Below are positions 13 to 16,759 of a DNA stretch of 24,094 nt, one piece after another; positions within the stretch are counted from its first letter, which is position 1, and every line of letters begins with the position of its first letter. Below the pieces are notes generated by a model. The model was not told the DNA's origin and did no database searches. It saw only the letters and a list, made by a program, of their open reading frames with translations. This DNA is from a virus. The DNA lies in IMG/VR virus record IMGVR_UViG_3300046009_000266, positions 1 through 24,094 of that record; one strand, given 5' to 3'. A program made the position numbers and the translations under genes.

Positions 13-3000
13 CTACACGCCCTTGAGAGCTGCTACGTCAGCTTCAAGGGTTTCGATGCGACCAATAGCCTCCTGCAGCGCAGCCGTCAGCAGAGGCACA
101 AGCTTGGACTGGTCGATACCTTGGTAGACGGGGTTGCCGTCAACATCCACTTCATCCTTGGTGCCTTGTACAGCCAGAGGGCACACTTCCTGTAATTCGT
201 GTGCAATGAAACCTTCACTAAGTGGTTGCGTCCCGCCAAAGCCCTTTTTCCATTCAAATTGCACTGGCTTAAGTGCTTTCAAACGGTCAGATGCGTTACT
301 TAGACAAACAATATTCTCCTTGAGGCGGTAGTCAGAACTGGTGTTGTATGTGGTGGTGGATCCGTTTGATAAGATCGACCCGGCACTAACGCGAGAGCTG
401 CCGTTGTCCGTATAGAAATTAATATGTGTAAGGGCAGACGCTGATGACCCAAGATTCCAAGCAGCCCCGCTCCCGGAAACTCGACAACGAATGGCATTGT
501 CAGTAGCGATATAAATTCCATTTACGCGGTTGGCCGTAGGATCAGTGTTTGTGGTGTTAATAAAAACACCACCATCACTCCCAATCCTCATCCGCTCTGA
601 CAGAGAGGTCGAACCAGTAAAGAAGCACAGCGAATCGCTTTGATTGTCGCTACCTTTAATTTGAGAAATCTTGGCTCCACCGGCGCCACTACCTAAGCTT
701 GGACCAAAGATAATTTGGTTTATAATGCTTCCCGAAGCTTGGTTTGTCTGATATCCATAAAGCGCTAATGTATTAGTTCTTACAGTCTCGTCCGTATGCC
801 CACCTATTTGCATTTTGTAGGACGAGTCAGCGACACTAGACGTGCCAACCAACAACCTGCCGGAGCTGTCGATGCGGGCCCGTTCTGTATTAGTGCCACC
901 CGAGGCGGTCCTGAAGGTTAGAATACCGGAATGAGATCCTGCTGTATTTCCGTCAATTAGACCTGCAATAGATGAATATACTACTTTGGCAGATGATCCG
1001 TTTAAGGCAGTGAACGACAAGCTGTTGCCTGACGCACCAGCGCCAAAGCTGCCTGGCATGTGAATTCTGATGCCATCACTCACTGTTCCATTGACTGCAG
1101 CGGAAACTACTTCTAGTGGGGCGTCAGGACTCGTAGTCCCAATCCCTAGTCGCCCACTTGAGTCAACACGCAGCCTCTCAGTGCCTTCAGTCGTAATAGC
1201 AAACGTGCCATTACTCCCAGTATCCGTAACCTCAGCCTTGGTGTTACCGACTTCTATCTTTGAGGTGATGGTGGTGCCTTGCGGCGCTGCATCCACCCAC
1301 TGGCTGCCGTTCGGGTCTTGGTAGTAGACGTAAAGCCGACCACCGACCGAGTCGTACCAGAGGTCGCCATCAACAGGCGTGCTGGGCGCTGTGTCGCTGG
1401 TGGTAACCGTGGCACCACTTGCTGCAGCAGTAGCCCAGGAGAGCGTGCCTGAGCCGTTGGTGCTTAGCACCTGCCCGCTGGTGCCATCAGCACTCGGCAG
1501 GGTCCATGTGACGTTGCTGCTGACTGTTGCTGGGCCTTGGAACGCAACCCAGTTACTGCTGTCGCTATCGGCAAAGCGCAGATCTGACTGAGCGTTCAGG
1601 GTCACGTCGCCGGTCAGTGCACCACCTGCCTTCGGCAGGGCAGCGTTCGCCAGGTCGTATGCCGACTTGACAGCGTTCGGGGTTGCTGCCGTTGAGGTGC
1701 TGGTGCTGCTCGTCGAATCGGTCAGCTGCACCACGCCCACCACGCTGGTGGTGCCGGCCACGATCTTGCTGCCGCTGATCGCAGCGCCGCTGGCGATGTC
1801 GGCGTTCATGATGGCGCCGGAGAGCACCAGCGTGCCGTCTGCGTTCGGCAGATAGATCAGCCGGTCCGCGGTCGGATCAGCAGCCAGCAGCTTGGTTTCG
1901 TTCGCGTCGTCGGTGCTGCCCTCGAACACCAGCCCCACGTTGGCGCCGAGCGCCACGTCACCCGTGAAGGTGCCGCCAGCTGCAGGCACTGCCGCAGCCG
2001 CCAGGTCATAGGCCGCCTTCACCGCTGTGGGTGTGGCAGCGAGCACCGAGCTGGTGGTGCCCGTGCTGTCGCTCAGCTGCACAACGCCGGCCACGCTGGT
2101 GCTTGCCGATGCCACGCTGACCGCAGGCGTAGTGGTGCCGTTGCTGACCGAGATCGCGCCGGAGCCCGTCACGCTGGTGACGGTGCCCACGTAGTCAGCG
2201 CCCCACTCGAGGCCGGTGGCAGCGGCGCTGTTGGCGCGCAGCACCTGCCCATTGGTGCCCACGCCGAGCTTGCTCAGCGCGGTGCTGCTGGATGCCGCCA
2301 GCAGATCACCCTTCGTGTAGCTGGTGGCGCCGGTGCCGCCCTTGGTGGCCAGCAGCGTGCCGCTGGTGATGTTGTCGGCGTTGCGGCACTCGTTGGATAC
2401 CTCCTCGATCGCCGCTTGCACGTTGGTGCTGCCGAGGTTGGCGGCAGGCGAGAAGCTGACGTTGTTGGCCGTTTGCGCTACGAACGTGGACGACACGTCG
2501 ATCACGGTCCAGCTGGAGCCGTTGCTCAGCAGCAGGTCAGGCGGTGCCAGTGCAACGGTCGGTGCCGGCGCTGTGCCGGTGCCGCCGACAGACACCACCA
2601 CGTAGTAGCCGTTGTTGCTCGAACTGGCGGAGGGAAGCGCGTTACCAACCGTCAGGCCGATGGCTGAGCCCTCGGTGGTGACGGTGGCGATCTGGTTCAG
2701 TGTGGCGTCATAGGTGCCGGCGAAGATCACCGAACCGGCCGAGATACCAAGCGGCTGCCAGACGTTGCCGTCCCACAGGAAGAACGCCTCGTCGAGCGGA
2801 TTGAAGAAGATCTGGCCGATGAAGTCGGCAGTGGGCAGCGCTTCACCGAACTTTGCCGTGGAATAGTTAGCCAGCTTCTGACCGGTGACGGCATCATCTG
2901 CAATCAGGGCTGTGTTGAATGTGCCGCTGGTGATCTTGCTGGCCGGCAGCGAAGGGATGTCGGTATCGGCCAGTGCTGCGCCTGCCGTGACGTGCCCCTG

Positions 3001-4308
3001 CGCATCCACCGTCACCTTGGGGTAGGTGCCAGCGGTGGCGCTGTTGCTGTGGTTCAGCGTGCCGCTGCTGACCGACAGGCCGGTGCCGGGCTGGATGATG
3101 CCCTTGGCGCTGGCGGTAGCGTCCGGCAGGTCGCCGGGCACCAGCGCACGGAAGGTCGGCGCCGCATCGGCGCCAGTCGTCGGTCCAGCGAACACCCGTG
3201 CTGCGCTCTGCGTGTCGAGAGTGGTGGTGATCGTGGCGCTGTAGTTGTCGGGGTAGGCGACCGAGAACGACAGCGGACTGGTGTCGCTGAAGCTGATCGT
3301 GCCGAGCGATGCCTGGCGCACCCAGCTGGTGCCGTCCCAGGTGTACTCGATGCCGGTGTTGGTGTTTAGCCACTGCTGACCGATGAAGGCGCCGCTACCG
3401 GACGGCGTGGAGGCGGCCACCACGGCAGCCGACTGATCCGCCAGCTTGGCGGCGGTGATGGCGTCATCGGCCACCTTGCCGGTGGTGACGGCGCCGGTAC
3501 CGAGTTTGGCCTCAACGACAGCGCCGCTGGCGATCGTTGCGGCAAACGATCCGGTGCCGGAGCCTGTCACGTCACCCGTCAGGGTGATCGTCTGATCGCC
3601 GGTGTTGGTGCCGGAGGTGGTGCCGCTGTGGGTGCCGGAGAAGGTGCCGGACTGCGTGGCGAGCGTGCCAAGGCCGAGCGTGGTGCGCTGTGCCGCAGCG
3701 TCTGCGTCATCGAGCAGCGCACGGCCTGCTGCAGTGCAGGCGATCTCCTCAACATCACCAGAGCCCGCAGTGCTGCGGCCGAGCAGCACGTTGCTGCTGC
3801 TGGTGTCCTGCAGCTTGGCGTAGGTGACGGCGCCATCCGCCAGCGCTGCCGTGCCGAGGTTGCTGGCCTTGGCGGTGGTGACGGCGCCATCCGCCAGCTT
3901 TGCGGTGCTCACCGAGCCATCCGCCAGCACCGAGGTGATCGCGCTGTAGGCGCCGGAGCGGTAGATCTGCAGCTCGCCGGTGCTGCTGTTGACCCAGCCG
4001 CGGCCGTCGAAATTGTCGGAACCGGGCGCCGAGGCGCTGATCGCCACCGAGCTGCTGTCGGCGAGCTTCGCGGCGGTGACGGCATCATTCGCCAGCGCTG
4101 CGGTGCCGAGCTTGGTGACGCTGGCCTGATCCAGCTTGTCGAGATCGATCGACGCGGCATCGACCAGATCGAGGCCGGCATCCACTAGGTCCTTGGCGGT
4201 GACCTTCTTCGTCTGCGATGCCGAAATATCGGCAATGGGCAGCACGTCGGTGGCAGCCACCGAGGACTTCGGCAGGGATGTGAGTTGGGTAATCCGCTGA
4301 TCAGCCAA
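13..4308 (-). CDS. Giant tail fibre with C-terminal S74 intramolecular chaperone domain
   Basis: A 1431-residue receptor-binding fibre, the last gene of the tail block here. The first ~46 residues (DVLPIADISASQTKKVTAKD) look like the virion-attaching start of many phage fibres. Then come AVTxAKLAD repeats (residues ~70-160, ~270-290, ~465-480), each long unit ending in a G..W.N..TG..W.G..W segment, and two phage-fibre repeats of the GVVQLxDST...TPxAVKxAYDLA type (about 735-775 and 852-892). Three ERxRIDSSGRL-like repeats follow (about 1043, 1142 and 1237). The end (about 1325-1431) has SDYRLKENI, GFIAHELQEV and a terminal coiled coil, the hallmarks of the Peptidase_S74 chaperone that trimerises fibres and cuts itself off; Ser1325 is the likely cleavage residue. 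The start codon is TTG, chosen because GGAGG lies 8 bases upstream, an in-frame stop sits two codons upstream, and no ATG occurs near the N-terminus. GC content falls sharply below about position 1250. The receptor is unknown. Confidence 0.93.
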   Translation of the reverse strand: MADQRITQLTSLPKSSVAATDVLPIADISASQTKKVTAKDLVDAGLDLVDAASIDLDKLDQASVTKLGTAALANDAVTAAKLADSSSVAISASAPGSDNFDGRGWVNSSTGELQIYRSGAYSAITSVLADGSVSTAKLADGAVTTAKASNLGTAALADGAVTYAKLQDTSSSNVLLGRSTAGSGDVEEIACTAAGRALLDDADAAAQRTTLGLGTLATQSGTFSGTHSGTTSGTNTGDQTITLTGDVTGSGTGSFAATIASGAVVEAKLGTGAVTTGKVADDAITAAKLADQSAAVVAASTPSGSGAFIGQQWLNTNTGIEYTWDGTSWVRQASLGTISFSDTSPLSFSVAYPDNYSATITTTLDTQSAARVFAGPTTGADAAPTFRALVPGDLPDATASAKGIIQPGTGLSVSSGTLNHSNSATAGTYPKVTVDAQGHVTAGAALADTDIPSLPASKITSGTFNTALIADDAVTGQKLANYSTAKFGEALPTADFIGQIFFNPLDEAFFLWDGNVWQPLGISAGSVIFAGTYDATLNQIATVTTEGSAIGLTVGNALPSASSSNNGYYVVVSVGGTGTAPAPTVALAPPDLLLSNGSSWTVIDVSSTFVAQTANNVSFSPAANLGSTNVQAAIEEVSNECRNADNITSGTLLATKGGTGATSYTKGDLLAASSSTALSKLGVGTNGQVLRANSAAATGLEWGADYVGTVTSVTGSGAISVSNGTTTPAVSVASASTSVAGVVQLSDSTGTTSSVLAATPTAVKAAYDLAAAAVPAAGGTFTGDVALGANVGLVFEGSTDDANETKLLAADPTADRLIYLPNADGTLVLSGAIMNADIASGAAISGSKIVAGTTSVVGVVQLTDSTSSTSTSTAATPNAVKSAYDLANAALPKAGGALTGDVTLNAQSDLRFADSDSSNWVAFQGPATVSSNVTWTLPSADGTSGQVLSTNGSGTLSWATAAASGATVTTSDTAPSTPVDGDLWYDSVGGRLYVYYQDPNGSQWVDAAPQGTTITSKIEVGNTKAEVTDTGSNGTFAITTEGTERLRVDSSGRLGIGTTSPDAPLEVVSAAVNGTVSDGIRIHMPGSFGAGASGNSLSFTALNGSSAKVVYSSIAGLIDGNTAGSHSGILTFRTASGGTNTERARIDSSGRLLVGTSSVADSSYKMQIGGHTDETVRTNTLALYGYQTNQASGSIINQIIFGPSLGSGAGGAKISQIKGSDNQSDSLCFFTGSTSLSERMRIGSDGGVFINTTNTDPTANRVNGIYIATDNAIRCRVSGSGAAWNLGSSASALTHINFYTDNGSSRVSAGSILSNGSTTTYNTSSDYRLKENIVCLSNASDRLKALKPVQFEWKKGFGGTQPLSEGFIAHELQEVCPLAVQGTKDEVDVDGNPVYQGIDQSKLVPLLTAALQEAIGRIETLEADVAALKGV

Positions 4309-4346: not shown

Positions 4347-5222
4347 TTAGTCCTCAGTTTCCTTCAGCAAGAAGTCGAGCGACTGCTCAAGGTTGATGCG
4401 GTCGTCGTCTTCCTTGAGGATGAACTCATCAATGGAGCCGATCAGCAGCCTGATCTCTCCTGTTGTCACGAAATCAATCGTGCAGTTGATGATGTCGCCT
4501 GCGCGCACTTCCACGCCGGCCTTTGTCACCATCGCATCGAATTGGTAGAAGACGTTATTCACGCCTGCATCGACTGACTTGTCGGTGAGGTAGAGCGCGC
4601 AGTCGAAGCTGCTGCCAAGCTCGAGGCGCTGGATCAGCTGCAGCATCAGCAGCGGCGTCTCGGTGACGCCGGCCGTTGTGTAGTCGAAGGCGCAGGTGAT
4701 CGAGCCACTGCCCGACAGCAGACCAGCGCTGTAGAGCTGCCGGAACTTGTCGTTCAGGCTGGTGGTGTCGATCGCCTCGCGATCCGTGGCCAGCGTGTAG
4801 TCGATGACGTTGCCCAGCACGCTGTAGGACACGTCGCGCACGCGGCACTCGATCGGGATCGGTTCACCGGAGAACTGGTAGAGCGCCAGCTCATTGGCGC
4901 GCGTGTTATTGACCGCATCGGTGAAGGTGCGGAAGAAGCGCAGGCCACCGGCTGCGTTCACGTTCACGTAGGCGGAGATGCCGCTCTCCACCGTGCCGCT
5001 GCTCCATGCGGCCCCGGTGAAGCAGACCAGCCCGCGCGCGTCGGTGGTGCTGATGTCCACCCGGTCACCCGTGAGCAGGTTGTCGCCGGCACTGTCGAAG
5101 CTCAGCCGGTCGAGGCTGGTGTTCACGTCGGCAGGATCGATCTGATCCTGCAGCGCGCTGATCAGCACCGAGGTGGCACGCCTCAGCCTGACGTTGCCCT
5201 TGGTGCCGAGGAAGAAGGTCAT
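4347..5222 (-). CDS. Tail tube-like distal tail protein, larger of a tandem pair
   Basis: A 291-residue protein not matched to a named family. It starts on ATGA with the gene before it. Its N-terminus (MTFFLGTKGNVRL) and its second half resemble the preceding 149-residue protein: IDTTS...LLSGSGSIT at about 151-176, and VFYQFDAMVTKAGVEVRAGD followed by DFVTTG at about 224-255. The alternation of beta strands with a closing G(E/D)I..(T/I)xF..xG motif is what is seen in tail tube proteins, including the major one of this window. Residues ~15-125 form an extra segment absent from the smaller partner. The C-terminal ~30 residues are acidic and probably helical. Its position between the J-like tip protein and the fibre suggests a collar or adaptor at the tail end; that role is inferred. 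Confidence 0.8.
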   Translation of the reverse strand: MTFFLGTKGNVRLRRATSVLISALQDQIDPADVNTSLDRLSFDSAGDNLLTGDRVDISTTDARGLVCFTGAAWSSGTVESGISAYVNVNAAGGLRFFRTFTDAVNNTRANELALYQFSGEPIPIECRVRDVSYSVLGNVIDYTLATDREAIDTTSLNDKFRQLYSAGLLSGSGSITCAFDYTTAGVTETPLLMLQLIQRLELGSSFDCALYLTDKSVDAGVNNVFYQFDAMVTKAGVEVRAGDIINCTIDFVTTGEIRLLIGSIDEFILKEDDDRINLEQSLDFLLKETED

Positions 5223-5668
5223 GCGATCACGCCGCCAGCGAGGAAGTCGCCATCGACCGTGAACTGGATCGGCACGGTCACCAGCTCGCCGGTGCTGACG
5301 CCAACCTGCGCGGATGTGATGTAGGCGAAGAACTCCAGATCGTCGGCTGCGTCATCGCTGATGCGCAGGCGAAGCTTCACGCGATCGGTCTCGGTGACGG
5401 CACCCACCTTCTGCACCTTGCCGAGCAGTGCGGTGAACTGCGCCAGCGTGGCCGACTCGCCGGCCTCGAGGCGGTAGTAGAGAAGCGTGGCCGAACCGCT
5501 GGCGGACTTCAGGCCAGGCGTAAAGGTTGCGGCCGTGCTGTCGATCGCGGTGGTGCTCAGCAGCTCCACGCTGGTCTCCACCGACCAGTCGCGGATCTTC
5601 GCCACGGGTTTGTAGGCCGCGCCGTCCCAGAACTCCAGCTTGCCCGTGCGGCCTGTGTAGAAGCCCAT
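5219..5668 (-). CDS. Tail tube-like distal tail protein, smaller of a tandem pair
   Basis: A 149-residue, mostly beta protein starting 26 bases after the J-like gene ends; the ribosome site is weak. Visible landmarks are MGFYTGRTGKLEF at the start, PGLKSASGSATLLYY at about 51-65 and FFAYITSAQVGVSTGELV with IQFTVDG at about 113-140. The last pattern (a strand, V.V..GE, then a strand ending xFT..G) is typical of phage tail tube proteins. The next gene repeats these landmarks in the same order, so the two are probably ancient duplicates. The true tail tube gene is at 14628-15563, so this one is more likely a distal tail ring or adaptor component. Lambda has no counterpart at this position. Its function is inferred from fold-like patterns and position only. 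Confidence 0.8.
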   Translation of the reverse strand: MGFYTGRTGKLEFWDGAAYKPVAKIRDWSVETSVELLSTTAIDSTAATFTPGLKSASGSATLLYYRLEAGESATLAQFTALLGKVQKVGAVTETDRVKLRLRISDDAADDLEFFAYITSAQVGVSTGELVTVPIQFTVDGDFLAGGVIA

Positions 5669-5694: not shown

Positions 5695-8600
5695 CTAGCG
5701 AATGGTGAAGCCACTATCCGCGAAAGCCGCGATCAGGCTCAAGGTCTGGCCATCCTGCTGAATGCACGGATGTTCAATGGCTTTCACCGAAACCTGCCCG
5801 TCTTCATCCATTTGCACCTCCGTTACACGGAACACCCGCTTGCGGGTGATCGAGGTGCCGAGCACGAACAGTCGGCCGACATAGGGTGCCAGCGCTGAGG
5901 CGGTGCCGTTGGTGACGGTCACGCTGTCCAGGCTCACCACAGCGCTGCCGGACTGGTAGACCAGCGCCTTCAGGCCGCTGCCGTTCGGCGCCTGCCCGAT
6001 CGGCGTGTTGAGCACGCCGCCGGCCTCCACCACGCCGGTGCTCACCTGATCCCACTGGTTCTCGCCGATCGCCACGTAGATGTAGCTGCCGGGCTCCAGC
6101 ACGCTGTCGGTGGGGAAGGTGGAGAACTCGATCGCGCGACGGATGTGGCGCCGCTGGTTGCAGAGCAGCTTGCCGAACCGGATCGCCTGGCTGCGGTTGG
6201 TGACGTACTGGGAGAGATCGAAGGTCTGGCGCACGCTGTTGGCCTCGAGCGCATCAGCGCGGCTCACCTCCACGCTGCGGTTGCGCGGGAAGACGCCATC
6301 GATCTCGGTGTCGCGGTAGATCACCGAGGCGATCAGGTCCTGCACGCTGCTGCCGAAATCGAGGAACTCCTCGCGGTAGCTGTCCTCGAGGATGTTGCCT
6401 TGGTTGAACAGCGCCGAGATGGTGACCTGCCGTGTGATGTTGCCGGCGTCATCGCAGGGCACCGCCGGCACCAGCGTTTCGCGGCCACCGACACGGCCAA
6501 GCTCAAGCAGCGAGAACGGTGCCACGTCCGCCCAGAACTGCCGCCACGGCACCTGCTCGGCGATCACGCCATCCATGAACAACTCGTTCTGACGGCAGAA
6601 ACGCTTAGCCAGCGCCAGCGCCTGCAGATCGACGCCGCCGATCTTGGCGAACCGGCCGATGCCGTTCTCGCCGTCGAGGATCGTGTCGAGGAAGATGTCG
6701 GGCGCGTAGCTGCTGGAGCCATCCGGCTGTGAGGGGTAGGTGCCGTCATCACGCAGGCGGCGCAGCTTCTTGCCCTCGAGCGTGAACACCGACAGCGAGC
6801 GCAGGTCTTGGATGCCTTGGCCGCTGTAGGCGTTGAAGCCCAGCAGCGTCAGTCCGTTGTAGAGGTTGGGGTAGTTACTGAAGGCCTCGATGCGCTGCTC
6901 CGTCACGGCGCTGATCGAGAACTCGGGTCCACCTTCAAAGCTGAAGCTGGTCTGCGTGTCGGAGCGCACGGAGAACAGCCCCCACTCGTCCACCTCGTAG
7001 GGGTTGACGTTGATCGATGGCTTGAGACCTTGCCGTGAGCGCACGCTGCCGAGGAAGGTGAACTGCCCGCCAGCTGGTCCGGGGATGATCTGCACGTCGC
7101 CGCTGTTCTCGATGTAGGCGAAGTCAGCAAAGCCGTGAAACTGCATTTCGGCAGCAGGCTCGGCGATCGGATCGAAGCGGAACTGCCAGTTGCCGATGTT
7201 GTCGCCGGCCACGAACTTCAGTGACATGAAGTTGTCCACGTCGGCGCCGCGGCGCACGGCGAAGATGTAGGGCAGCCGGCTCCACTCTGCGCCGGTGCGG
7301 CGGTAGCGCAGCCAGAAGAAGGCCGCGCGCACCTTGGTGCCGTTGTCGCTGTCGCGGAACCGCTCCACCTTCTCCTTGCCGTACTTCGGCGCACGGCCTT
7401 GGATCCGCTTAAACACCTTAGCCTTGAGCGCGAAATCAACCACGCGGCACTCGGTGATCGTCTCGTAGCCGGCCTCCTCCATCTTCACCAGGCACTTGGT
7501 GTTGAAAAAGTCGTTCCAGCTGTTCGGATTCTCGAGGTAGCGCTGCAAAAAGCCAATTCTGTTGTTTTTGGTTGTGATCTCGCTGCGCAGGTTGGCGTCA
7601 CGCGCCGACATTGCATTCAAATCGAGGTTGTTGGCGTCTGCGTAAAGCTCAGCCAGTTCCTTCTGCAAGCGGCTTTGCCGCCTGAGCAGAACCTTGCGGT
7701 CTTCGCGGAGCGTACCGCCTCTGGGCGTATTGAAGCCATACTCACGAACGGCCCAGTCGAGCTTTGACTGCTGATTCCTCAGGCGCTTGCTCAGAGTCGC
7801 AATTCGTACCCTGGCTTCCCTGATCCACTGCCTTCTTCTGTCGATGAACGCCTGGCTGGTGTTGGGTTTCTTCCGCTCTGCGCTGATCTCCTCTTGCCAT
7901 TCTTCGATCTGGTTTCTTTCGTCGTCTCGGCTCTGGCGAGTGTTTAGCACCCTCTGGGCGAATGGATTGATGCGATCGTCGAAGATGTCACCGTCATCGT
8001 TGAGTATGCTGTCGATCTCGGCAGCAGTCCAACGGTTATCTCTTAACTCTTCAACCAGACTGATGAGCGAATCAATCTCATTGAGCTTTGCACTGATCCC
8101 ATCGCCAACGCCGGGCTTGAGGATCGATTGATTGCGCAGCAGCTCATCGTTCAGCGTTTCAATTTCACCCTGCAGCTTGATGATCTCGTTTTGTGCTTCG
8201 CGGCCGTTCTTCTTGAAGTCTGTGGTGCCGTAGTCCTCGATCGGGCAGATACCAGCCTCGATGCACTCCATCGAGACCCGCATGGCGCCGTCCTCCAGCT
8301 CCACGTTCTTGATCGGTGCCGCCACGCGGAACTTCGCGCTGCCGAGCTTGTAGGTGCTGGCCGCGTCGATGTAGCTCGAGAGCGTGCGGCGCAGCTCCTT
8401 GGCCGCGCGGGCGGTGTCGCTGCCGCCTGAGCTGATCTGCCGGAAGATCAGCGTCATGCGCTGCCCGACCGGGACTGTGGGACGCGCGTCGTTGAGCACG
8501 TTCAGTGGCCAGTAGCTCTCCAGCCCGGCGATCTCCACGCCAAGCGGTGCGTCCTTCTCCCTGCCATCCTCATCGCGGTCGATGTAGACCACGTTGATCG

Positions 8601-9321
8601 GGATCGGCGCGAAGACACCGAACCGCGTCATGGTGCTCGGCGAGAAGGCCTGGCTGAAGCCGTCCTGATGATTGTCGCCGATCAGCGTCGGCCGGTAGGC
8701 GATGCTGCTGGCCGCCTCGCCGATGCGCGTCGGGTCGCTCTCATCACCGCGGATCAGATCGGAGAACCGCAGCGGCCGGTTGGCGCCGAGATACGCCCAG
8801 GTCTTGCCGGCTGCCAGCTGACGGATCGGGGTCTGGCCGAACGCGATCCGGCCGGGTCCGATGCGCTGGATCTCAGACGCGCCGATCACCACCAGCATCT
8901 GCATAAACTGGCTCGAGCCCTCGCTGTGGACAGCCGACCACACCAGCGAGCTTGCCACGCGCACGCCGCCGGTTGGGTTGTCGTCCACGTTGCAGTAGAC
9001 GAGGTTCACCGGGTCGCCGTACTTGGCCAGCTCCTGCTGTGAGTTGAAGCCGAACCGCGGGGCGAACACCTGATCACGGCGCTGCCGCTGGTTCTTCTGC
9101 TCCATCTCCGGCTTCGGAGCGAGCAGGTAGCTGACGGCCTGCAGGATGATGCCGACCACCGCAAGGATGATCGAGATCGGTTCAGCGCGCAGTTCCTGCA
9201 GCTTCTCCTCACGCGATCGCGTGAAGTCGTGCTGCACCGCCAGAAACTCGAGGTATTCGTCCTCTGAGACCTTCAGGATCTGGATGAGCTCGTGCTCATA
9301 GGGCAGCAGCTTGCGCGTCAT
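5695..9321 (-). CDS. J: J-like tail tip protein (host specificity), with coiled-coil insertion
   Basis: A 1208-residue central tail tip protein, similar in size to lambda J (1132 residues), expected to form the trimeric hub at the tail end. Residues ~49-68 are strongly hydrophobic, like the membrane-like segment of lambda gpI, which has no separate gene here. Residues ~85-360 have the J-type hub start (FGFNSQQELAKYGDPVNLVY). Residues ~365-597 are a charged, largely helical stretch with heptad-like spacing (for example LQGEIETLNDELL and RRQSRLQKELAELYAD), encoded by DNA of lower GC than its flanks. Tip-type sequence resumes at FFNTKCLVKMEEAGYETI and continues with RIQGRAPKYGKEK, then LDTILDGENGIGRFAKIGG and FCRQNELFMDGVI around 880-935, typical of J-family domains. 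The ATG overlaps the K-like stop as ATGA. The gene ends in TAG. The fibre downstream probably works with it in adsorption. Confidence 0.9.
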   Translation of the reverse strand: MTRKLLPYEHELIQILKVSEDEYLEFLAVQHDFTRSREEKLQELRAEPISIILAVVGIILQAVSYLLAPKPEMEQKNQRQRRDQVFAPRFGFNSQQELAKYGDPVNLVYCNVDDNPTGGVRVASSLVWSAVHSEGSSQFMQMLVVIGASEIQRIGPGRIAFGQTPIRQLAAGKTWAYLGANRPLRFSDLIRGDESDPTRIGEAASSIAYRPTLIGDNHQDGFSQAFSPSTMTRFGVFAPIPINVVYIDRDEDGREKDAPLGVEIAGLESYWPLNVLNDARPTVPVGQRMTLIFRQISSGGSDTARAAKELRRTLSSYIDAASTYKLGSAKFRVAAPIKNVELEDGAMRVSMECIEAGICPIEDYGTTDFKKNGREAQNEIIKLQGEIETLNDELLRNQSILKPGVGDGISAKLNEIDSLISLVEELRDNRWTAAEIDSILNDDGDIFDDRINPFAQRVLNTRQSRDDERNQIEEWQEEISAERKKPNTSQAFIDRRRQWIREARVRIATLSKRLRNQQSKLDWAVREYGFNTPRGGTLREDRKVLLRRQSRLQKELAELYADANNLDLNAMSARDANLRSEITTKNNRIGFLQRYLENPNSWNDFFNTKCLVKMEEAGYETITECRVVDFALKAKVFKRIQGRAPKYGKEKVERFRDSDNGTKVRAAFFWLRYRRTGAEWSRLPYIFAVRRGADVDNFMSLKFVAGDNIGNWQFRFDPIAEPAAEMQFHGFADFAYIENSGDVQIIPGPAGGQFTFLGSVRSRQGLKPSINVNPYEVDEWGLFSVRSDTQTSFSFEGGPEFSISAVTEQRIEAFSNYPNLYNGLTLLGFNAYSGQGIQDLRSLSVFTLEGKKLRRLRDDGTYPSQPDGSSSYAPDIFLDTILDGENGIGRFAKIGGVDLQALALAKRFCRQNELFMDGVIAEQVPWRQFWADVAPFSLLELGRVGGRETLVPAVPCDDAGNITRQVTISALFNQGNILEDSYREEFLDFGSSVQDLIASVIYRDTEIDGVFPRNRSVEVSRADALEANSVRQTFDLSQYVTNRSQAIRFGKLLCNQRRHIRRAIEFSTFPTDSVLEPGSYIYVAIGENQWDQVSTGVVEAGGVLNTPIGQAPNGSGLKALVYQSGSAVVSLDSVTVTNGTASALAPYVGRLFVLGTSITRKRVFRVTEVQMDEDGQVSVKAIEHPCIQQDGQTLSLIAAFADSGFTIR

Positions 9322-9695
9322 CGATCCATCCAGAAGTAGCGCGCCACGCCATCAGGCAGCGGCGCCTGTACGACATTCTGCCCCGGCCCGATGAACAGCA
9401 GCGCCCGGCCAAGGCAGGTGCCGAGCGCTGTGCCGCTACCGGCCGGCAGCAGTGCCACCGCGCCGCGTTGGGGTCGCTTCAGCGGGCTGCCGTGCTCGAG
9501 CACCCAGCGCACGATCATCGAGCGCGGGAAGGTCTCCTCGCTCCAGTCGCTGTAGACCCACTGGAAGCGCTCGCGGTAGCTGGTGAGCCCCAGCCGGTCG
9601 CGCACCTCGCACGCCAGCTGGAAGCAGTCGGTAAGCCCGCTGCCATCGCCCGGCCGGTGTCCCCAGCCGTAGCCGAGACCCACCAGGTCATTCAT
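9318..9695 (-). CDS. K-like tail tip assembly protein, degenerate NlpC/P60 cysteine peptidase fold
   Basis: A 125-residue protein in the place of lambda K, between the L-like and J-like genes, with ATGA overlaps on both sides. GYGWGHRPGDGSGLTDCFQL at 9-26 resembles the catalytic-Cys block of NlpC/P60 peptidases, with Cys24 as the nucleophile. PQRGAVALLP at 75-84 matches the next conserved strand. The block that normally reads H-V-G-I-Y reads GTCLGRALLFIGPG (about 92-105), so the usual catalytic His seems to be replaced by Cys94. The protein lacks the Mpr/JAMM-like domain of lambda K (199 residues). It may be an inactive structural relative or use another base. The family call rests on motif shape and synteny. 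Confidence 0.75.
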   Translation of the reverse strand: MNDLVGLGYGWGHRPGDGSGLTDCFQLACEVRDRLGLTSYRERFQWVYSDWSEETFPRSMIVRWVLEHGSPLKRPQRGAVALLPAGSGTALGTCLGRALLFIGPGQNVVQAPLPDGVARYFWMDR

Positions 9696-10156
9696 CGCAG
9701 GTAGAGCTCCGAGTTGAGCGGCAGCGGTCCCACCATGTCGCGGGTGAAGCTGCGGCCGGGAAAGCTCGAGCCCACGCTGTCGATCGCCGAGCGGAAGCGC
9801 AGCTCGATGGTGGTCTCGCTGAAGCTGGCGCCGAGGCCGATGTAATAGTCGGTGGCGGTGTTGGTGATTGTGCCGGCAGCGTTCAGCCAGGCGGTGGTGA
9901 GGGTGAGCTCGCTCAGCCGGTTGCCGTTGCCGCGCTCCACCAGCACCAGCGCGAAGTCCACATGGGGGAACAGCACCTGCAGCTGCGCGTTCTCGCCGTT
10001 CAACGTGGCCAGCGCACCTTCGGCGCGAAATGGCGCGAAGAAGTAGCTCTCACTCTGCAGGATGGCGGTCTGCGCCACGAAATAGTTCTGGTAGCGGTGT
10101 GTGACGCCATCGGTCGTCAGCAGCTTGAAGAACTGGCAGATGCGGATCTCGGCCAT
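9692..10156 (-). CDS. L-like minor tail tip protein
   Basis: A 154-residue protein in the lambda gpL position, between M-like and K-like genes, starting on TGATG and ending on ATGA. It opens with MAEIRICQFFKLLTTDG. It ends in a strand-rich stretch (ATDYYIGLGASFSETTIELR, then an SFPGRSFTRDMVGPLP segment), which resembles hub proteins of the L/DUF2163 type that form the ring joining tail tube and tip. Lambda gpL has a C-terminal iron-sulfur domain with several Cys; this protein has only one Cys (residue 7), so that domain is absent. The call depends mainly on gene order. Confidence 0.7.
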   Translation of the reverse strand: MAEIRICQFFKLLTTDGVTHRYQNYFVAQTAILQSESYFFAPFRAEGALATLNGENAQLQVLFPHVDFALVLVERGNGNRLSELTLTTAWLNAAGTITNTATDYYIGLGASFSETTIELRFRSAIDSVGSSFPGRSFTRDMVGPLPLNSELYLR

Positions 10157-10545
10157 CAGAAGTCGAGCTCTCCGATGAGGGTGATCGAGACACGGCTGCG
10201 GCCGGTGTAGACCGACTGCACCTCGGGCGGCCCGGCATACTCCCAGCGGATGCTGGTCGGTGCCTGGATGTAGCCGCGCAGCGTAGTGGTCATCCCGGCG
10301 AACAGGTCAGCCGGCAGCGTGAAGCGATCGAAGCCACCGCTGGATCCGTTGTAGTGCGCCAGCAGCTGCTCAGTGGTGGCGTCCGGGATGTTGTCGAAGC
10401 CGAGCTGCAACTCAAATCCGCTGGGACGGCTGCCGAAGGCGCGTTTCACGGTCGCACCCGACAGTGCCCGGTAGGTCTTCACCGGGAAGGTACCGAGCTT
10501 GAAGGCTCGGGTGGTCGGCTTGATCCGGGGGAACTGCTCAGCCAT
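10156..10545 (-). CDS. M-like minor tail protein (distal tail family)
   Basis: A 129-residue protein directly after the tape measure gene, the position of lambda gpM. It starts and ends on TGATG overlaps. The pattern of a beta N-terminus (RAFKLGTFPVKTYRALSG), a mid helix (TTEQLLAHYNG), an aromatic-rich turn (GGFDRFTLP) and a final strand (RSRVSITLIGELDF) follows the layout of the minor tail M family, in which a short helix is followed by a W/F-T-P turn and a last strand. It would form a ring at the end of the tube below the tape measure. Sequence identity to lambda gpM looks low, so the call is by layout and synteny. Confidence 0.7.
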   Translation of the reverse strand: MAEQFPRIKPTTRAFKLGTFPVKTYRALSGATVKRAFGSRPSGFELQLGFDNIPDATTEQLLAHYNGSSGGFDRFTLPADLFAGMTTTLRGYIQAPTSIRWEYAGPPEVQSVYTGRSRVSITLIGELDF

Positions 10546-13500
10546 CAGCGCAGCCCCACACGGGTTCGGGTGGACGGGCTCTGCTGCAGTTTATCGAGCG
10601 TCATGGTCATTCCACGCTTCGCACCGTCGCGGGATGCAGCGCGCCGGGTTTCGGCCATGGCGGCCTCCAGCTGATCGCGGCTGACGTATTCGACGCCGCC
10701 GATGTTGGTGCTCTGGAAGCTCATATTGAGCACCGGGGCACCCATGCCTTGCGTCGGCCCGGCACCCATGGCCTCGCGCATCTTGTCCTGCCCCTGCAGC
10801 GCCACAGGGATGCGGCGACCATCGGGCAGCGGCACGTAGGCCTCGGGCTTGCTGCCCTCGCCGTAGAGCGCCAGCTGCGGCCGGTTGGCAATGCCGCCCT
10901 GGGAATACTTCTTGAGCGGTGCCGGCCCGCTGGAGGTCATCACGCCGCCGTTGGCGAAGCCGAAGCCGGCAAAGATCGACTTCATGCCGAAACGCAGCAA
11001 CATGGAGCCAATGTCTTTAAGCACGCCAGACGCGATGCCCTTCAGCGTGTCGCCGAGATTGTCCGCGCCGGTCATCGCTGCTTCGATGGTGGCCTCGATG
11101 CCGCCGATGATGCCGTCCGCGATCGTGCTCTTGATGTTGCCGTAGAGCTCCTTGATCTCAGCGGCGCGCTGCTCCGTTCTCTCGCGCTCCTCGCGTGCCT
11201 TGCGCTCAGCATCGGCCAGCTCGAGCGTCTTGTTCACCAGCTGCCCCTGCAGGTTCAGCCGGTCCTCGATCGCCTGCACCTGCTTCTCGAGCTCCTGGCG
11301 CAGCGCGCTATCCACCGGCAGCGTGGCGATCTTCGCCTGCAGCTCGGCCTCCATCGCCAGCAGCTTCTCCTGCTCGATCGCGGCCGTTGCCTCCAGCTCC
11401 ACCCGCTGCTTGGCAATCTCGGGGCTGATGCCCTGCTTCAGCAGCTCGAAATAGCGCACCTCATCGCGCAGCTTGTTACCGGCCGCCTCCTGCTGGCTGC
11501 TGAGCGCATCGGTGATCGCGCCGTATTTCTGCTCCAGCGCGGTGATGGTCTGCAGCTCGTTGAGCCGCTGCTGCTGACTGGCGAGCGCACCCTGCGCGGC
11601 GCTGAGGTTGGCACCGGCCTGCGTCACGCCAGCCATGGCCGGAGCGGTTGCCGGTGGCAGCGCAGGCGCCATCGGGGTAGCGCCGGCACGCATGGCCTGC
11701 GGCAGGAACTGCTTGTAGGCGCCGGACTTGAACACCGACCACGCGCCGAAGCCCTGGCTCTCGAACACCTTGCGCGCGGCGCTGGCGTTCACCGCCGGAT
11801 CGAACAGCGCCTCATTGCTGCCGATGCCGAACGATCGCCGCCGCTCCGGCCCCATGCGGCCGAGCATGTTGACCTGCCAGAGGCCGTAGCTGTTGTCGCC
11901 GGTCGCTGCGTTGTTGTTGTGCGCGTTGCTGCGGCCGCCAGATTCGGCCATGGCGATCGCCGCCATGATCGAGGCATCGCGGTCGTTGAAGCCGGCCGCC
12001 AGCGCCAGCGCCTTCAGCTGGCCGGCGTTCAGCTGGCCGCGGCCAACAGAGCCCGGCATCAGCCGGTTCGGCCCGAGCGCACCACCAGCACCACCTGCGC
12101 CGCCGAGCGTGGCAGCAGCAGCCTCGGCGCCGGTCTTCATCTTCTCCGCCAGCTTCTCGCCTGCGTCCTGCAGGATGTTGCTGACCTGGCGCGCGTAGCC
12201 CTCTTGCAGCTTGCCGATGCCCTCGGCCACGCTGATCTTGAACTCCTCCAGCCGGCGCTGCAGATCGGTCTGCGCATCGACGGCGCCGCGCTCGTTCTCA
12301 ATCCGCTGCTCGTCATAGCGGCGGAAGATCTCCTTCACCTCCTTGGCGGTCTCGATGCCCTCGGTGGAGAGCCCTGCAGCTGCCAGCCGCTGCCGCTCAG
12401 CCTCCAGCGCGCGATCCTCCAGCGTTTGCTGCAGCTTGGTGCGCGTGTCGGCGATCTGCCGCTCAATCTTCAGCCGCTCATCGGCCAGATCGCGCTCGAG
12501 CTCCATCGCGCGCTTGATCGTCTCGCGCTGGAAGTCGGCGATCTGCTCGGCGTTGCGCTGCGCCGCATCCGCCAGCTTCTCCTCCGCATCCTTGCGGATC
12601 TTCAGCTCGTCCTCCAGCGCCTCCTTCCGCGCACGCTGGCGGGCAGCTTCACGCTCGGCTGCTGCGGCCTCACGCGCCTCGCGCTGGTCGGCGCTGGGGT
12701 TGTCGCCCATTGAGCCCATCGCCCGCTGGCGCCGCTCAGCTTGGAACTGGTTGAACAGCTCCTCGCTGCGCTGGTTCTGGAAGCGGTCGATCTCAAAGCC
12801 GTAACGGAAAAAGCCGCCGATGCCAAACTTCTTGCTGGCTTCCTTCTGCGCCTGGATGGTGGCGCGGATCCGGTCTGCCTCGCGCTCCTGTGATCCCTCA
12901 GTCAGCCGCAGCGCATCAGACACCCGCTGCAGCGCGCTTGTGAAGCCACGCAGCAGCGCGATCGCGGCCGGTCCGAAGGCCTTGGCGATGCCTTCGCCCG
13001 TGCGGCGCAGCTCGTTCTGCAAATCGGCCAGCGCCTGCGCACCGGTCTGGAACTGCGCGTTGAGCTTGCCGAGCTGCGTCTCCTGCAGCTTGCCCAGTGC
13101 CCGCAGCACCACGTCGGTGGTGACCTGCCCTTGGGCTGCCAGATCCTTCAGCTCGCCGATCGAGACGCCGAGCTCCTTGGCGATCGCCTGCGCCGCCAGT
13201 GGCGCCTGCTCACGGATGGAGCGCAGTTCCTCACCCTGCAGCACGCCGGAGGCCAGACCCTGCTTCAGCTGGATCAGTGCATTGCTGGTTTCCTGCGCCG
13301 TCGCGCCGCTGTTGCGCGCGGCCGCCGAGAAGCCGATGAAGGCCTTCTCCAGCTCCTGAATGGTGATGCCGGTCGGGCGCAGCGAGGCGTAGAGCGAGGC
13401 GAAGCTGCCCTGCGCCTCGGTGGTGCTGATGCGCAGCGTCTGCGCGATCCGTGCCGCGGCCGCCTGCGCTTCGTTGTATTCGCCGAACTCATCGGTCAGC

Positions 13501-13946
13501 GCCTTCAGCCGCACCTGCGCGCTTTCGGCCTGCAGACCCACGTCAGCGACGAACTTCACCGCCAGCGCACCGCCAGCAGCCGCCGCAAGGCCGCCAAGGC
13601 CGCCACCCATGGCCAGCAGGCCACCGCCGCCCTTGGTGGTGCCCGTGAGCTTTGCCTGCTGTCGCTGCAGCTTCTCCAGCTCGGAGGTGTAGAACTTGAA
13701 CTGCCGGCTGCCGATCTGCGCTTCGTTGCGCAGGTTCGTCATCACCGTGATCTGCCGCTGCAGCGAGTTGAGCGAACCACCGGCCGCCTGCGCCAGCTTC
13801 TTGTTCGCCGCGTAGAGCCGATCGAGATCCTTGCTACTGCGGTTGGCCTGCTGCGCCATGCCCTGCAGGCCGCGCTTGAGCTGATCGAGCCCTTGCCCTT
13901 CCAGCTTGGCGGTGAACTTGATCGCGGTGTCGAGGGTCATCGCCAT
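10545..13946 (-). CDS. Tail tape measure protein with embedded lysozyme-like domain
   Basis: A 1133-residue tape measure, which sets tail length and is extruded during DNA injection. Residues 1-110 are helical, followed by a Gly/Ala-rich hydrophobic segment (about 107-135). Residues ~150-330 match the tape-measure N-terminal family (for example GVLQGEELRSIREQAPLAAQ). Residues ~415-600 are a long charged coiled coil. Residues ~640-752 look like a lytic transglycosylase or lysozyme-like domain, with AMAESGG carrying Glu668 and NSYGLWQVNMLG behind it. The C-terminus has a hydrophobic stretch (SMLLRFGMKSIFAGFGFANG) and the SQGGIANRPQLALYGEGS block of lambda gpH-type proteins. At about 3 bases per 1.5 angstrom of helix it predicts a tail of roughly 170 nm, a rule of thumb. 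The start is set by AAGGAGG just upstream of ATG. Confidence 0.93.
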   Translation of the reverse strand: MAMTLDTAIKFTAKLEGQGLDQLKRGLQGMAQQANRSSKDLDRLYAANKKLAQAAGGSLNSLQRQITVMTNLRNEAQIGSRQFKFYTSELEKLQRQQAKLTGTTKGGGGLLAMGGGLGGLAAAAGGALAVKFVADVGLQAESAQVRLKALTDEFGEYNEAQAAAARIAQTLRISTTEAQGSFASLYASLRPTGITIQELEKAFIGFSAAARNSGATAQETSNALIQLKQGLASGVLQGEELRSIREQAPLAAQAIAKELGVSIGELKDLAAQGQVTTDVVLRALGKLQETQLGKLNAQFQTGAQALADLQNELRRTGEGIAKAFGPAAIALLRGFTSALQRVSDALRLTEGSQEREADRIRATIQAQKEASKKFGIGGFFRYGFEIDRFQNQRSEELFNQFQAERRQRAMGSMGDNPSADQREAREAAAAEREAARQRARKEALEDELKIRKDAEEKLADAAQRNAEQIADFQRETIKRAMELERDLADERLKIERQIADTRTKLQQTLEDRALEAERQRLAAAGLSTEGIETAKEVKEIFRRYDEQRIENERGAVDAQTDLQRRLEEFKISVAEGIGKLQEGYARQVSNILQDAGEKLAEKMKTGAEAAAATLGGAGGAGGALGPNRLMPGSVGRGQLNAGQLKALALAAGFNDRDASIMAAIAMAESGGRSNAHNNNAATGDNSYGLWQVNMLGRMGPERRRSFGIGSNEALFDPAVNASAARKVFESQGFGAWSVFKSGAYKQFLPQAMRAGATPMAPALPPATAPAMAGVTQAGANLSAAQGALASQQQRLNELQTITALEQKYGAITDALSSQQEAAGNKLRDEVRYFELLKQGISPEIAKQRVELEATAAIEQEKLLAMEAELQAKIATLPVDSALRQELEKQVQAIEDRLNLQGQLVNKTLELADAERKAREERERTEQRAAEIKELYGNIKSTIADGIIGGIEATIEAAMTGADNLGDTLKGIASGVLKDIGSMLLRFGMKSIFAGFGFANGGVMTSSGPAPLKKYSQGGIANRPQLALYGEGSKPEAYVPLPDGRRIPVALQGQDKMREAMGAGPTQGMGAPVLNMSFQSTNIGGVEYVSRDQLEAAMAETRRAASRDGAKRGMTMTLDKLQQSPSTRTRVGLR

Positions 13947-13949
13947 GGA

Positions 13950-14306
13950 TCAACCCTCCTTTGCCATCGCTGTCAGTGCCGCGCCTTCCATGATCTGCAG
14001 ATCCTCCAGGAGGGAGCGCGGCTCCGTCACTTCGTACAGTCTAAAGAGCCATTCCAGAGCGCCGTAATCGAGCCCGATCGGCCCGCCCATCGATGTGCGC
14101 CACTGCGTTGAGATGCGCAGGAACATCAGCACCGCATCCCAGTTCTCAGGCCATACCTCAAAGTCGCCGGATGAGGCCTGCTCGGGCAGATCAAGCCCGA
14201 ACGCGGCCGCATCATCCTGTGACTCATCAACGACGCCGCCGCCGGCCCAGTGCTCGGCGGCCTCGGTCAGTTTTTTCGTTTGCCCTTCGCCAGGCTCTCC
14301 AGCCAT
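13950..14306 (-). CDS. T-like tail assembly chaperone extension (DUF1799-like), made by -1 frameshift
   Basis: This open frame (118 codons if read from its own ATG) overlaps the end of the upstream chaperone gene and lies just before the tape measure gene. FEVWPENWDAVLMFLRIST, QWRTSMGG and GLDYGALEWLF (about 49-88) match the DUF1799 family found at the gpT position. Reading from the slippery site at 14276-14270, the frame continues as KKLTEAAEH, exactly what a -1 slip of the upstream frame yields. The expected product is therefore a GT fusion of about 220 residues, 114 from the first frame and 106 from this one. The ATG at 14306 has only a weak ribosome site (GGTGACC). GT binds the tape measure and recruits tube subunits in lambda. 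Confidence 0.85.
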   Translation of the reverse strand: MAGEPGEGQTKKLTEAAEHWAGGGVVDESQDDAAAFGLDLPEQASSGDFEVWPENWDAVLMFLRISTQWRTSMGGPIGLDYGALEWLFRLYEVTEPRSLLEDLQIMEGAALTAMAKEG

Positions 14307-14611
14307 GCGGTCACCACGGCCGCGGCGACCAGAGGCACGTTCAGCAGGTCGGCCTTGGCCTTCTCGCTGAAGCGCACCTCCTCACCCTTGGCGTCCTGGA
14401 TGCCCTTCCAACCGGTCAGCACCTCGGCGCACAGCTCGTCATCGTTGAGATCACCGGCCTGAATCAGGTCCCAGATCTCGCGGATGCGCTGCTGTGGCAG
14501 CCGCTTGAAGACTGCATCGAAGGATTGTTTCTCGAACCGGCCACCATCGATGGGGAACTCGACAGTGACCGGCCAGCTGTAGCTCTCAGTTTGAGCGAGA
14601 ACAAATGCCAT
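14267..14611 (-). CDS. G-like tail assembly chaperone
   Basis: A 114-residue protein between the tail tube and tape measure genes, the gpG position. It starts 16 bases after the tube gene with GGAG about 8 bases before ATG. RFEKQSFDAVFKRLPQQRIR (about 25-44) and ELCAEVLTGWKGIQD (about 58-72) are typical of small helical tail chaperones, where the GW motif and surrounding acidic helix recur. The frame ends in AAA AAC TGA, the slippery site used to make the longer GT protein. In the lambda scheme, G coats the tape measure during assembly and is absent from the finished virion. Confidence 0.85.
   Translation of the reverse strand: MAFVLAQTESYSWPVTVEFPIDGGRFEKQSFDAVFKRLPQQRIREIWDLIQAGDLNDDELCAEVLTGWKGIQDAKGEEVRFSEKAKADLLNVPLVAAAVVTAWLESLAKGKRKN
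14270..14276 (-). promoter_or_regulatory. Programmed -1 ribosomal frameshift site A AAA AAC
   Basis: On the minus strand the G frame reads CGA AAA AAC TGA. The heptamer A AAA AAC is in the canonical X XXY YYZ register, directly before the stop. A slip of one base back leads into the downstream chaperone frame (AAA AAA CTG ACC GAG). The coordinates agree: codon ends of the G frame are 2 modulo 3, those of the downstream frame are 0 modulo 3, as a -1 shift requires. Confidence 0.9.
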
Positions 14612-14627: not shown

Positions 14628-15563
14628 TCAGGTGTAGACCAAGCTCAGCTCATCGTTGCCGGCGCTGGTGGGCACAGCAACGTAGGGCAGGTTCAGCATC
14701 TGGATGCCGTCCTGGTCAGAGTAGCTGGGGTTCGCGATGTCGGATTGAGCCGTCGTGAAGGTCACGATGTTGCCGGCCGTGCCGCCATGCTGGAAGCTGA
14801 TCGAGCCAGTGCTCGAGCCCGTGGCGATCGCGAAGAAGTCCTTCGTGGCGATGCTGGGCGCCTCGATCACCACGTCACCAGCGGGCGCGCGGTTCACGAT
14901 CAGCGACTCCTTCGTGCAGCCCACCAGCTCGCGGTAGATCACCTCATTCGCCAGCTGGAAGTTCAGGGACTGCAGGCAGCCGCTGTAGCTGAAGATGGAG
15001 AAGTTGGAGGTGTTGCCGTTCTTGAAGATCAGCGGAGCGGCTTGGTTGGCGTAGGTGGGGCTGGGCAGGCTCTCGTCGGTGGGAGCGTTGTAGATGCCCG
15101 TCATGGTGAAGGAGATCACCGGGATCTGCCCCACCTCGGCGTTCAGCTCAAAGGTGCCGCGGCAGCCGGTCACCTTGTGGCGGATGCCGTCGTTGTGGAA
15201 GTAGATGGTCACCGAGCTGAAGCTCGCGCTCACGGGCGCATAGGTGACGCTGGTGGTGGCCACCACGGTCTCGGACAGACCGCAGGCCTTCAGCACCGGA
15301 CCGTAGGCCGGCGCAGTGCCGGCAGTGCCGGAGCCGGCCAGTTCCACCTCAAAGGTCACCTCCACGCGGGTCTGCGCCAGCAGCTGATCGCTGTTGCCCA
15401 GATACGGCCGGATCAGGTCGCGGGTAACGGTGTCAGCCTGCAGCGGGGTGATCTCAAGGTTCCGCACCAGGATGGCGTTCGCCGAGCCGGTCGGGGTGGG
15501 ATCAGTCCCGTAGGTGCTTTCAGTCTTCGCCAGGATCAGGCGTTTGCGGCTCAGGAGCGGCAT
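14628..15563 (-). CDS. Major tail tube protein
   Basis: A 311-residue, beta-rich protein at the gpV position, between the tail terminator cluster and the G/T chaperones. It starts with LSRKRLILAKTESTYGTDPT, a common opening of phage tail tube proteins. The mid part has an alternating strand pattern with GTFELNAEVGQIPVISFTMT (about 134-153), the strand-turn-strand motif by which tube subunits stack. It forms the hexameric rings of the tail tube. AGAGGT about 9 bases upstream supports the ATG, although the start lies inside the end of the preceding small gene. Confidence 0.85.
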   Translation of the reverse strand: MPLLSRKRLILAKTESTYGTDPTPTGSANAILVRNLEITPLQADTVTRDLIRPYLGNSDQLLAQTRVEVTFEVELAGSGTAGTAPAYGPVLKACGLSETVVATTSVTYAPVSASFSSVTIYFHNDGIRHKVTGCRGTFELNAEVGQIPVISFTMTGIYNAPTDESLPSPTYANQAAPLIFKNGNTSNFSIFSYSGCLQSLNFQLANEVIYRELVGCTKESLIVNRAPAGDVVIEAPSIATKDFFAIATGSSTGSISFQHGGTAGNIVTFTTAQSDIANPSYSDQDGIQMLNLPYVAVPTSAGNDELSLVYT

Positions 15564-15698: not shown

Positions 15699-16124
15699 TC
15701 AGCTCGCCAGATTTGTGACGGAGGTTCGATACATCACACGATAGTCGCACTGGATTTCTCCAGCCGCGCCGTCCGCTTCTGTGAAGTTGAAGGTGACACC
15801 GATCGGCTGCACATCGATCGCGTAGCCGCCGAGCGTCAGGTCCGCCATGACCTTGCTGTGCAGGCTTTCGATGATCGGATCAGCCAGCTGATCCGGCACC
15901 GCGCCGCGCACGATCACCGTGATGCGCACGATCATCGACCAGTCGAGCGTCGGCAGCGCCGTGTTCTGCGCCGCTGTGTCGCTCAAGGGCTCCACCACGA
16001 TCGCCGGGCTCTCGGCACGGCTGACCGGCTCCACGCGGCTGCGGTAGATCCGCGTGCTCACGCCGGTGGTGTTGGTGAGTGCGGTGCGGACCGCAGCCAG
16101 GATCGTCTCGCGTTTGGTGGTCAT
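15699..16124 (-). CDS. Tail terminator protein (gpU-like)
   Basis: A 141-residue protein just before the tail tube gene. MTTKRETILAAVRTALTN, TRIYRSRVEP and ESPAIVVEPLSD match the usual opening of tail terminator/gpU-type proteins: an N-terminal helix, an RSR strand and a PAI(V) strand. Later strands read MIVRITVIVRG and, near the end, QCDYRVMYRT. The hexamer caps the tail tube and contacts the head completion protein. It starts in an ATGA overlap with the jelly-roll gene. Confidence 0.82.
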   Translation of the reverse strand: MTTKRETILAAVRTALTNTTGVSTRIYRSRVEPVSRAESPAIVVEPLSDTAAQNTALPTLDWSMIVRITVIVRGAVPDQLADPIIESLHSKVMADLTLGGYAIDVQPIGVTFNFTEADGAAGEIQCDYRVMYRTSVTNLAS

Positions 16125-16759
16125 GCTGCTGCTACCTGAACCACTGTGCAGATGATGCCGGGGATGCTTGGATGCGCAAACGGACTGCTGGCCGCAGCCT
16201 CAGCGTGGATGTAGGCCGCTGCGTTCGCGGTTGCCCATATCAGCTCGATGTAGTCGCCTGCCGTCAAGGTCAACACGAAGTTGACGCAGCCGATAACGTT
16301 CCCATCCACGCCGCCGTGGCGGCTGATGACGCTAAAGCGGCTGTCGCTATCTGGCACATCACCACTGGCGCCGCTGTCGTTCTTTCGCAGCCAGACGTTC
16401 ACGTCATGGATGTCGTTGCTGGTATTGCTGAACTGGATGGAGAAGGTGAAGCTGTAAACGCCAGGATGATCGACGATGATCCGGCTGCTTGATTCGACTT
16501 TGACGCCACGGCTGGATGGGTCCGTTGAGCGCAACAGGATCGGCGTTGGCGTGTTCGCCACGGCAACCTGTGATGTCTTGTCAAAAAAGGAACCCCAATA
16601 GCCAGGGCAGCCCGTATAAGGCAGTTTGACCCAAGGCGTCCGGCCGTCTCCGATCTTGAGATTGCCAGTGTCGGACTCAAGGCCGTGCTCACCCGCGAGC
16701 AGCACAGGGTTCAGTGATGCCCAGCTGGCGCGTCTGCTGGTCTTGCTGATGGCGTTCAT
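16121..16759 (-). CDS. Mtd_N-like and probable jelly-roll virion protein in the gene Z position
   Basis: A 212-residue protein. Residues ~8-48 (NPVLLAGEHGLESDTGNLKI, then GDGRTPWVKLPY) match the Mtd_N-type beta-prism segment, in which a G-E-x-G-x-E-x-D-T-G-x-L-K-I-G-D-G core is usual, found at the start of many phage fibre proteins. Residues ~55-212 look like one beta-sandwich of TNF/C1q type: GVYSFTFSIQFSN, VNVWLRKND, CVNFVLTLTAGDYIELIWAT and IICTVVQVAAA are successive strands. It has ATGA overlaps with the FII-like gene before it and the terminator after it. Samples of its DNA have about 52% GC against about 67% in the neighbour. Lambda has the tail completion gene Z here. It may be a capsid or neck decoration or a receptor-binding whisker; that is inferred. 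Confidence 0.82.
   Translation of the reverse strand: MNAISKTSRRASWASLNPVLLAGEHGLESDTGNLKIGDGRTPWVKLPYTGCPGYWGSFFDKTSQVAVANTPTPILLRSTDPSSRGVKVESSSRIIVDHPGVYSFTFSIQFSNTSNDIHDVNVWLRKNDSGASGDVPDSDSRFSVISRHGGVDGNVIGCVNFVLTLTAGDYIELIWATANAAAYIHAEAAASSPFAHPSIPGIICTVVQVAAA

Follow-up and report, generated by a model that had tools for sequence, protein, structure and literature searches.

Two tandem tail-tube-fold proteins encoded between a J-like tip protein and the tail fibre, a candidate fibre adaptor of a siphovirus lineage

The fold of the phage tail tube forms rings of six subunits, and how interchangeable siphophage fibres are attached to a conserved tip is understood in few model phages. In lambda, we know of no tube-fold gene between J and the side fibre. 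The first-pass annotation of the locus described here, which saw two tube-like proteins at that place, had stated that they have no equivalent in lambda, and this was right; p140 of T5 is nonetheless a structural precedent (PMC10038345). The T5 protein is a tube-protein duplicate, read by the authors of that work as a copy of T5's own tube protein, and it forms an extra ring in the tip. This ring is trimeric, pseudo-hexameric and undecorated, it is surrounded by the p132 collar to which the L-shaped fibres connect, and p140 and p132 were called a landmark of T5-like phages only (PMC10038345). In T4, gp54 and gp48 form TTP-like rings between the baseplate and the tube (PMC10038345; PMC8718954), but they belong to a contractile tail, act as tube initiators and form no cassette with a fibre gene.

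The two proteins of this locus, T149 and T291 (Table 1), appear to be a variation on this known reuse of tube-protein duplicates, with T5 p140 as the closest parallel. In both cases a tube-fold paralogue is present on top of the major tube protein, and the further likeness would be an extra distal ring in a siphophage tail that serves fibre attachment. The differences are that neither T149 nor T291 is, at the sequence level, a duplicate of the resident tube protein, and that there are two single-tube-domain genes after J, of which T291 carries an insertion. The p140 ring of T5 also lies above the Dit ring and not below the hub, so that being encoded after J need not equal being located after J, and gene order gives no more than an indication of where a protein sits in the virion. 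In the cyanophages P-HS2, MED4-184, MED4-117, S-H1 and KBS-S-2A, the major tail proteins (phrog_10528, phrog_1407 and phrog_158) belong to the same sequence family as T149 and T291, but the gene occupies the canonical major-tube slot ahead of the tape measure, and there was no second copy after J in the stretches of these phages that were examined.

The late module and its two additional genes

The window (the whole 24,094-base virus record IMGVR_UViG_3300046009_000266) contains a siphovirus late module on the minus strand. Its head side comprises a terminase, a portal, a protease-capsid fusion, connectors and a tail terminator, and its tail side the major tail tube protein, two chaperone-type genes, the tape measure, three tip genes, the J-like gene, T149, T291 and the fibre; the tail gene order is lambda-like as far as J. 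The canonical tube slot, between the tail terminator and the tape measure, holds the resident tube protein, and T149 and T291 sit after J, with reading frames that overlap by 4 nt (ATGA). The putative canonical tip genes upstream of T149 are 10156-10545, 9692-10156, 9318-9695 and J. The earlier placement of two neighbouring genes between the J-like tip and the fibre was correct in coordinates and frames.

Elsewhere in the module, the prohead protease (S78) and the major capsid protein are a single fused 620-aa gene (17659-19521, minus strand), two overlapping tail-chaperone-type genes (14267-14611 and 13950-14306, minus strand) lie 5' of the tape measure, and the tape measure itself (10545-13946, minus strand) has an internal lysozyme-like/SLT domain at residues 646-737 (SLT_3, E 1.9e-17). 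Placed between the head-closure and tail-terminator genes, 16121-16759 (minus strand) may encode a neck fibre or whisker: its N-terminus carries a major-tropism-determinant domain (PF18454, E 1.2e-6), and its C-terminal part resembles BclA in a match that scored below the cut-off (PF18573, E 5e-4). A gene labelled "tail fiber" occupies a comparable place in S-H1. The 64% G+C of the window, together with the cyanophage relatives, suggests a picocyanobacterial host.

Table 1. Tail-tip features of the window (positions in the record)
Feature	Position	Strand	Evidence
T149, single-domain tail-tube-fold protein, 149 aa	5219..5668	-	phrog_1407 "major tail protein", E 1.4e-9
T291, tail-tube-fold protein with insertion and C-terminal tail, 291 aa	4347..5222	-	phrog_10528 "major tail protein", E 0.0025
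T291 residues 16-128, predicted insertion domain, between the first and second strands of the tube fold	4839..5177	-	AlphaFold2 model
T291 residues 129-262, remaining tube domain	4437..4838	-	aligns with T149 residues 17-141; strand/helix order as in T149
T291 residues 263-291, acidic C-terminal tail, candidate docking peptide	4347..4436	-	conserved; low pLDDT
J-like central tip protein, 1208 aa, upstream neighbour	5695..9321	-	phrog_31 "central tail fiber J", E 5e-14, residues 1039-1184
Long tail fibre with intramolecular chaperone, 1431 aa, downstream neighbour	13..4308	-	Phage_fiber_2, E 1.3e-22; Peptidase_S74, E 4e-10; phrog_18345 tail fiber, E 2.4e-54
Fibre constant N-terminal segment, first 60 aa, putative T149/T291 dock	4129..4308	-	T291 directly upstream in 80/80 loci
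Resident major tail tube protein, 311 aa, other tube family	14628..15563	-	PF18906 Phage_tube_2, E 3.1e-25

Fold and descent of T149 and T291

Sequence comparison indicates that T149 and T291 are paralogues of each other. Their local alignment scores 95, whereas 500 shuffles average 33.6 (SD 5.8) and none scores as high, and T149 searched against its own record finds T291 at E 5e-7. The similarity claimed earlier is therefore real and far above chance, as are the motifs on which that claim was based: MGFYTG and MTFFLG at the start, IDST..PGLKSASGS and IDTT..AGLLSGSGS internally, and VGVSTGELVTVPIQFTVDG and VEVRAGDIINCTIDFVTTG at the end. Single-sequence shuffles and single-family HMMs were used here in place of a profile-profile comparison of shallow alignments, which at 2.4% (A1 versus A2) carried no information. 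Both are real, constrained genes, because NG86 dN/dS against relatives is 0.05-0.22 for T149 and 0.10-0.36 for T291, values that point to purifying selection on both. The "about 110" extra residues that had been noted in the larger protein correspond to an insertion of ~113 residues after strand 1 (~16-128), to which a C-terminal tail of 29 residues is added. The tail motif ILKEDDDRI.LEQSLDFLLKE is conserved among 34 diverse sequences; with a pLDDT of about 35 in the monomer model, the tail is probably unfolded.

AlphaFold2 was run on each protein with alignments of orthologues only, and the models were compared with the PDB by Foldseek. The T149 model (pLDDT 77, pTM 0.68) consists of E8-14, E19-41, E47-64, H75-85, E97-102, E110-120 and E131-142. 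The T291 model, of moderate confidence (pLDDT 71.6, pTM 0.61), consists of E11-15, the insertion, E134-145 (two strands), E169-179, H188-199, E205-213, E224-239 and E245-261, and the order of elements agrees between the two. T149 has the beta-sandwich, single helix and long beta-hairpin of the tube fold, and T291 has them at lower confidence. The best PDB matches of T149 are tail tube proteins (E 8.6e-6 to 1e-4), led by those of phage YDC107, monocin, a gene transfer agent, 80alpha, lambda gpV, whose fold the model shares, and SPP1, with query TM-scores of 0.53-0.60; by sequence alone, no relatives of T149 were found among solved structures. The top matches of the whole T291 model are also tube proteins (80alpha, lambda, T1 and GTA; E 9e-4 to 1e-2), weaker than those of T149 and with a single one at E < 0.001, and against BFVD it matches viral tail proteins. 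Its insertion is folded in the model, mostly at pLDDT 70-93 per block of ten. For 5219-5668 and 4347-5222, predicted structures and fold comparison thus agree with the first-pass annotation that both are tail tube-like, and we assign both to the tail-tube fold on the basis of these models.

Dit and hub proteins also use this fold, and SPP1 Dit (2x8k) and baseplate chains are among the structural matches of T149. The two domains might for this reason be assembly helpers or hub closures, such as a plug or lid, that provide no dock for the fibre. Against this, the canonical tip genes seem to be present upstream already, and the same fibre N-terminus always follows the cassette; we consider such a role improbable.

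The first reading stood in its tube fold and its mutual paralogy and found no support in its third element, descent from the phage's own tube protein. Against the resident protein, 19 of 500 shuffles scored as high as T149 and 162 of 500 as high as T291, neither of which is significant, and the profile of the window-type tube matches neither of the two. Since the resident protein belongs to another family (PF18906) and lacks significant sequence similarity to the pair, we rejected this derivation. Homology of the T291 insertion to that of related major tube proteins, an idea prompted by a visual resemblance ("GD.V ... YYV"), was rejected as well (276 of 500 shuffles as high; hhalign probability 0.6%). 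A tree built from 25 tube domains has T149 in one clade and T291 in another (100/99), and both group toward the single-domain tube proteins of cyanophages (S-H1 and P-HS2), apart from the insertion-bearing tube proteins with which they co-occur (98/96); the branches are long and the deep order is uncertain. This placement suggests that T149 and T291 are old paralogues and not recent duplicates of the resident tube.

The same affinity emerged from searches of other phages. T149 shares ~31% identity with the major tail protein of the Prochlorococcus siphophages P-HS2, MED4-184 and MED4-117, in which its relative sits shortly before the tape measure, and the T149 profile matches the tube proteins of S-H1, MED4-184 and MED4-117 at 1e-10 to 1e-14. 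Separate HMMs for the T149 orthologues and for the T291 orthologues, neither containing members of the other family, were searched against the 40,889 ORFs of the fetched loci; beyond their own families they found essentially just tube proteins adjacent to the tape measure (E 2e-3 to 2e-10), against 0.08 or worse for shuffled ORFs. Both single-family profiles match the genuine tube proteins of MED4-117 and S-H1, and the reverse profile, built from tube proteins, recovers 116 T149 and 50 T291 members. T149 and T291 are homologous in sequence to proteins at the major-tube position of other phages. Iterated profiles merge all of these families and were excluded as independent evidence. Both tube genes of S-H1 and the tube protein of KBS-S-2A are members of the T149/T291 family. 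The KBS-S-2A gene (20001-20759), annotated merely as "hypothetical protein", was identified by the family profiles, and the S-H1 genes (19522-19938 and 19941-20363), also annotated as hypothetical, lie in tandem at the major-tube position, so that a cultured phage, too, has this family in tandem.

Among INPHARED isolates, at the sensitivity of tblastn, there was no T291 and no T149 outside the major-tube position; cultured phages searched with the fibre N-terminus gave no match, and no relative turned up when 84,980 genomes of bacteria and archaea were scanned. Two apparent candidates were set aside: the small, similar-sized genes after J in Synechococcus phage S-CBS4 (gp040-gp042) are unrelated to the pair, and the apparent second tube gene at the end of the MED4-117 record looks like the same gene repeated at both ends and not like a paralogue.

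Linkage of the pair to tip and fibre

Hundreds of IMG/VR loci share the gene order J-T149-T291-fibre, and among them the major tube protein belongs to at least two different families. T149 is followed by T291 on the plus strand in 338 of the 341 loci with both genes, the remaining 3, all minus-strand readings, being the window itself plus the two loci derived from it; in 4 further loci without a full T291, a contig end cuts the gene. In 300 of 318 loci the two reading frames share 4 nt or 1 nt, and in 184 of 273 the long ORF upstream stops 26 nt short of T149. In three loci the J-like gene is in two reading frames (L036 6121-9974, L037 3-1177 and L067 3-2549), through sequencing error, frameshift or a real break. 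These counts come from loci chosen through T149 or T291, with the same contigs fetched repeatedly, and an independent scan was therefore made with the first 63 residues of the fibre alone. In its best 80 loci, T291 was directly upstream in 80 and T149 in 79; the scan covers these best 80 loci, and more distant fibres may lack the pair.

Sequence comparison across loci indicates that T149 and T291 travel with the tip/fibre block and not with the tube. In the tally by tube type (INDEPENDENCE from tube), in which each distinct T149/T291 pair is counted once, 27 pairs occur with a window-type tube, 23 with a T149-family tube and 15 with an unclassified one. In pairs of loci whose J N-terminal parts are 31-38% identical, T149 is 75-81% identical, the T291 tube domain 74-87% and the fibre N-terminus 87-97%; for L250 and L242 the respective values are 33%, 81%, 87% and 97%. 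Locus L129 keeps T149, T291 and the fibre, while its J and tape measure can hardly be recognised. Because the tube family varies, the J N-terminus diverges and L129 retains these three genes, the cassette behaves as a tip/fibre module. T149/T291 distances correlate about equally with the J C-terminus and with the fibre N-terminus, so co-inheritance points to no single partner among J and the fibre.

These observations also bear on whether T149 and T291 are minor or alternative subunits mixed into the tube itself, as the tandem tube proteins of S-H1 at the major-tube position might suggest. Here the genes come after J, past both the tape measure and the hub, and they stay constant while the major tube family switches, which would be hard to reconcile with co-polymerisation; we regard mixing into the tube as very improbable.

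A proposed distal adaptor

The earlier suggestion that the pair are distal rings or fibre adaptors is plausible. We think it probable, from the combination of sequence, models and analogy with T5, that T149 and T291 are ancient tube-protein paralogues turned into one or more dedicated distal rings, which would adapt the variable fibre to the J-like tip. Most likely, T149 and the tube domain of T291 would assemble at the distal tail end with the ring geometry usual for tubes, either as two stacked hexamers or as a single ring with three copies of each. In T291, the insertion and the conserved acidic tail would point outward as a socket for the constant fibre N-terminus, and the fibre, presumably trimeric, would dock there with its N-terminus. 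The outward parts of T291 would provide this socket, and the ring or rings may for that reason serve as adaptor from the J-like tip to the host-recognition fibre.

The same outward parts resemble docking elements of another arrangement, in which T149 and T291 would form an outer collar around the J trimer or the last tube rings, outside the DNA channel, with the fibre hanging from the collar. The T5 collar protein p132, which surrounds the p140 ring and bears three side fibres (PMC10038345), offers a model for it, but p132 is an Ig-like protein without the tube fold, and the T149 model retains the two long strands (19-41 and 47-64) typical of lumen-forming tube subunits. An outer collar thus seems unlikely, and we favor the distal adaptor ring.

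More tentatively, the pair could be a fibre-mounting module of two tube-fold rings, beyond the hub, that is exchanged together with the fibre among siphophages of differing tube and J proteins. We know of no described tube ring at a location beyond the hub. The lineage comprises hundreds of viral contigs and none of the isolates examined, and it defines a two-gene adaptor, as proposed here, and a constant fibre N-terminus. The structural prediction that follows concerns only three short proteins and, if right, would widen the known reuse of the tube fold. In sum, tube rings may be reused by phages as a collar on which host-recognition fibres are mounted.
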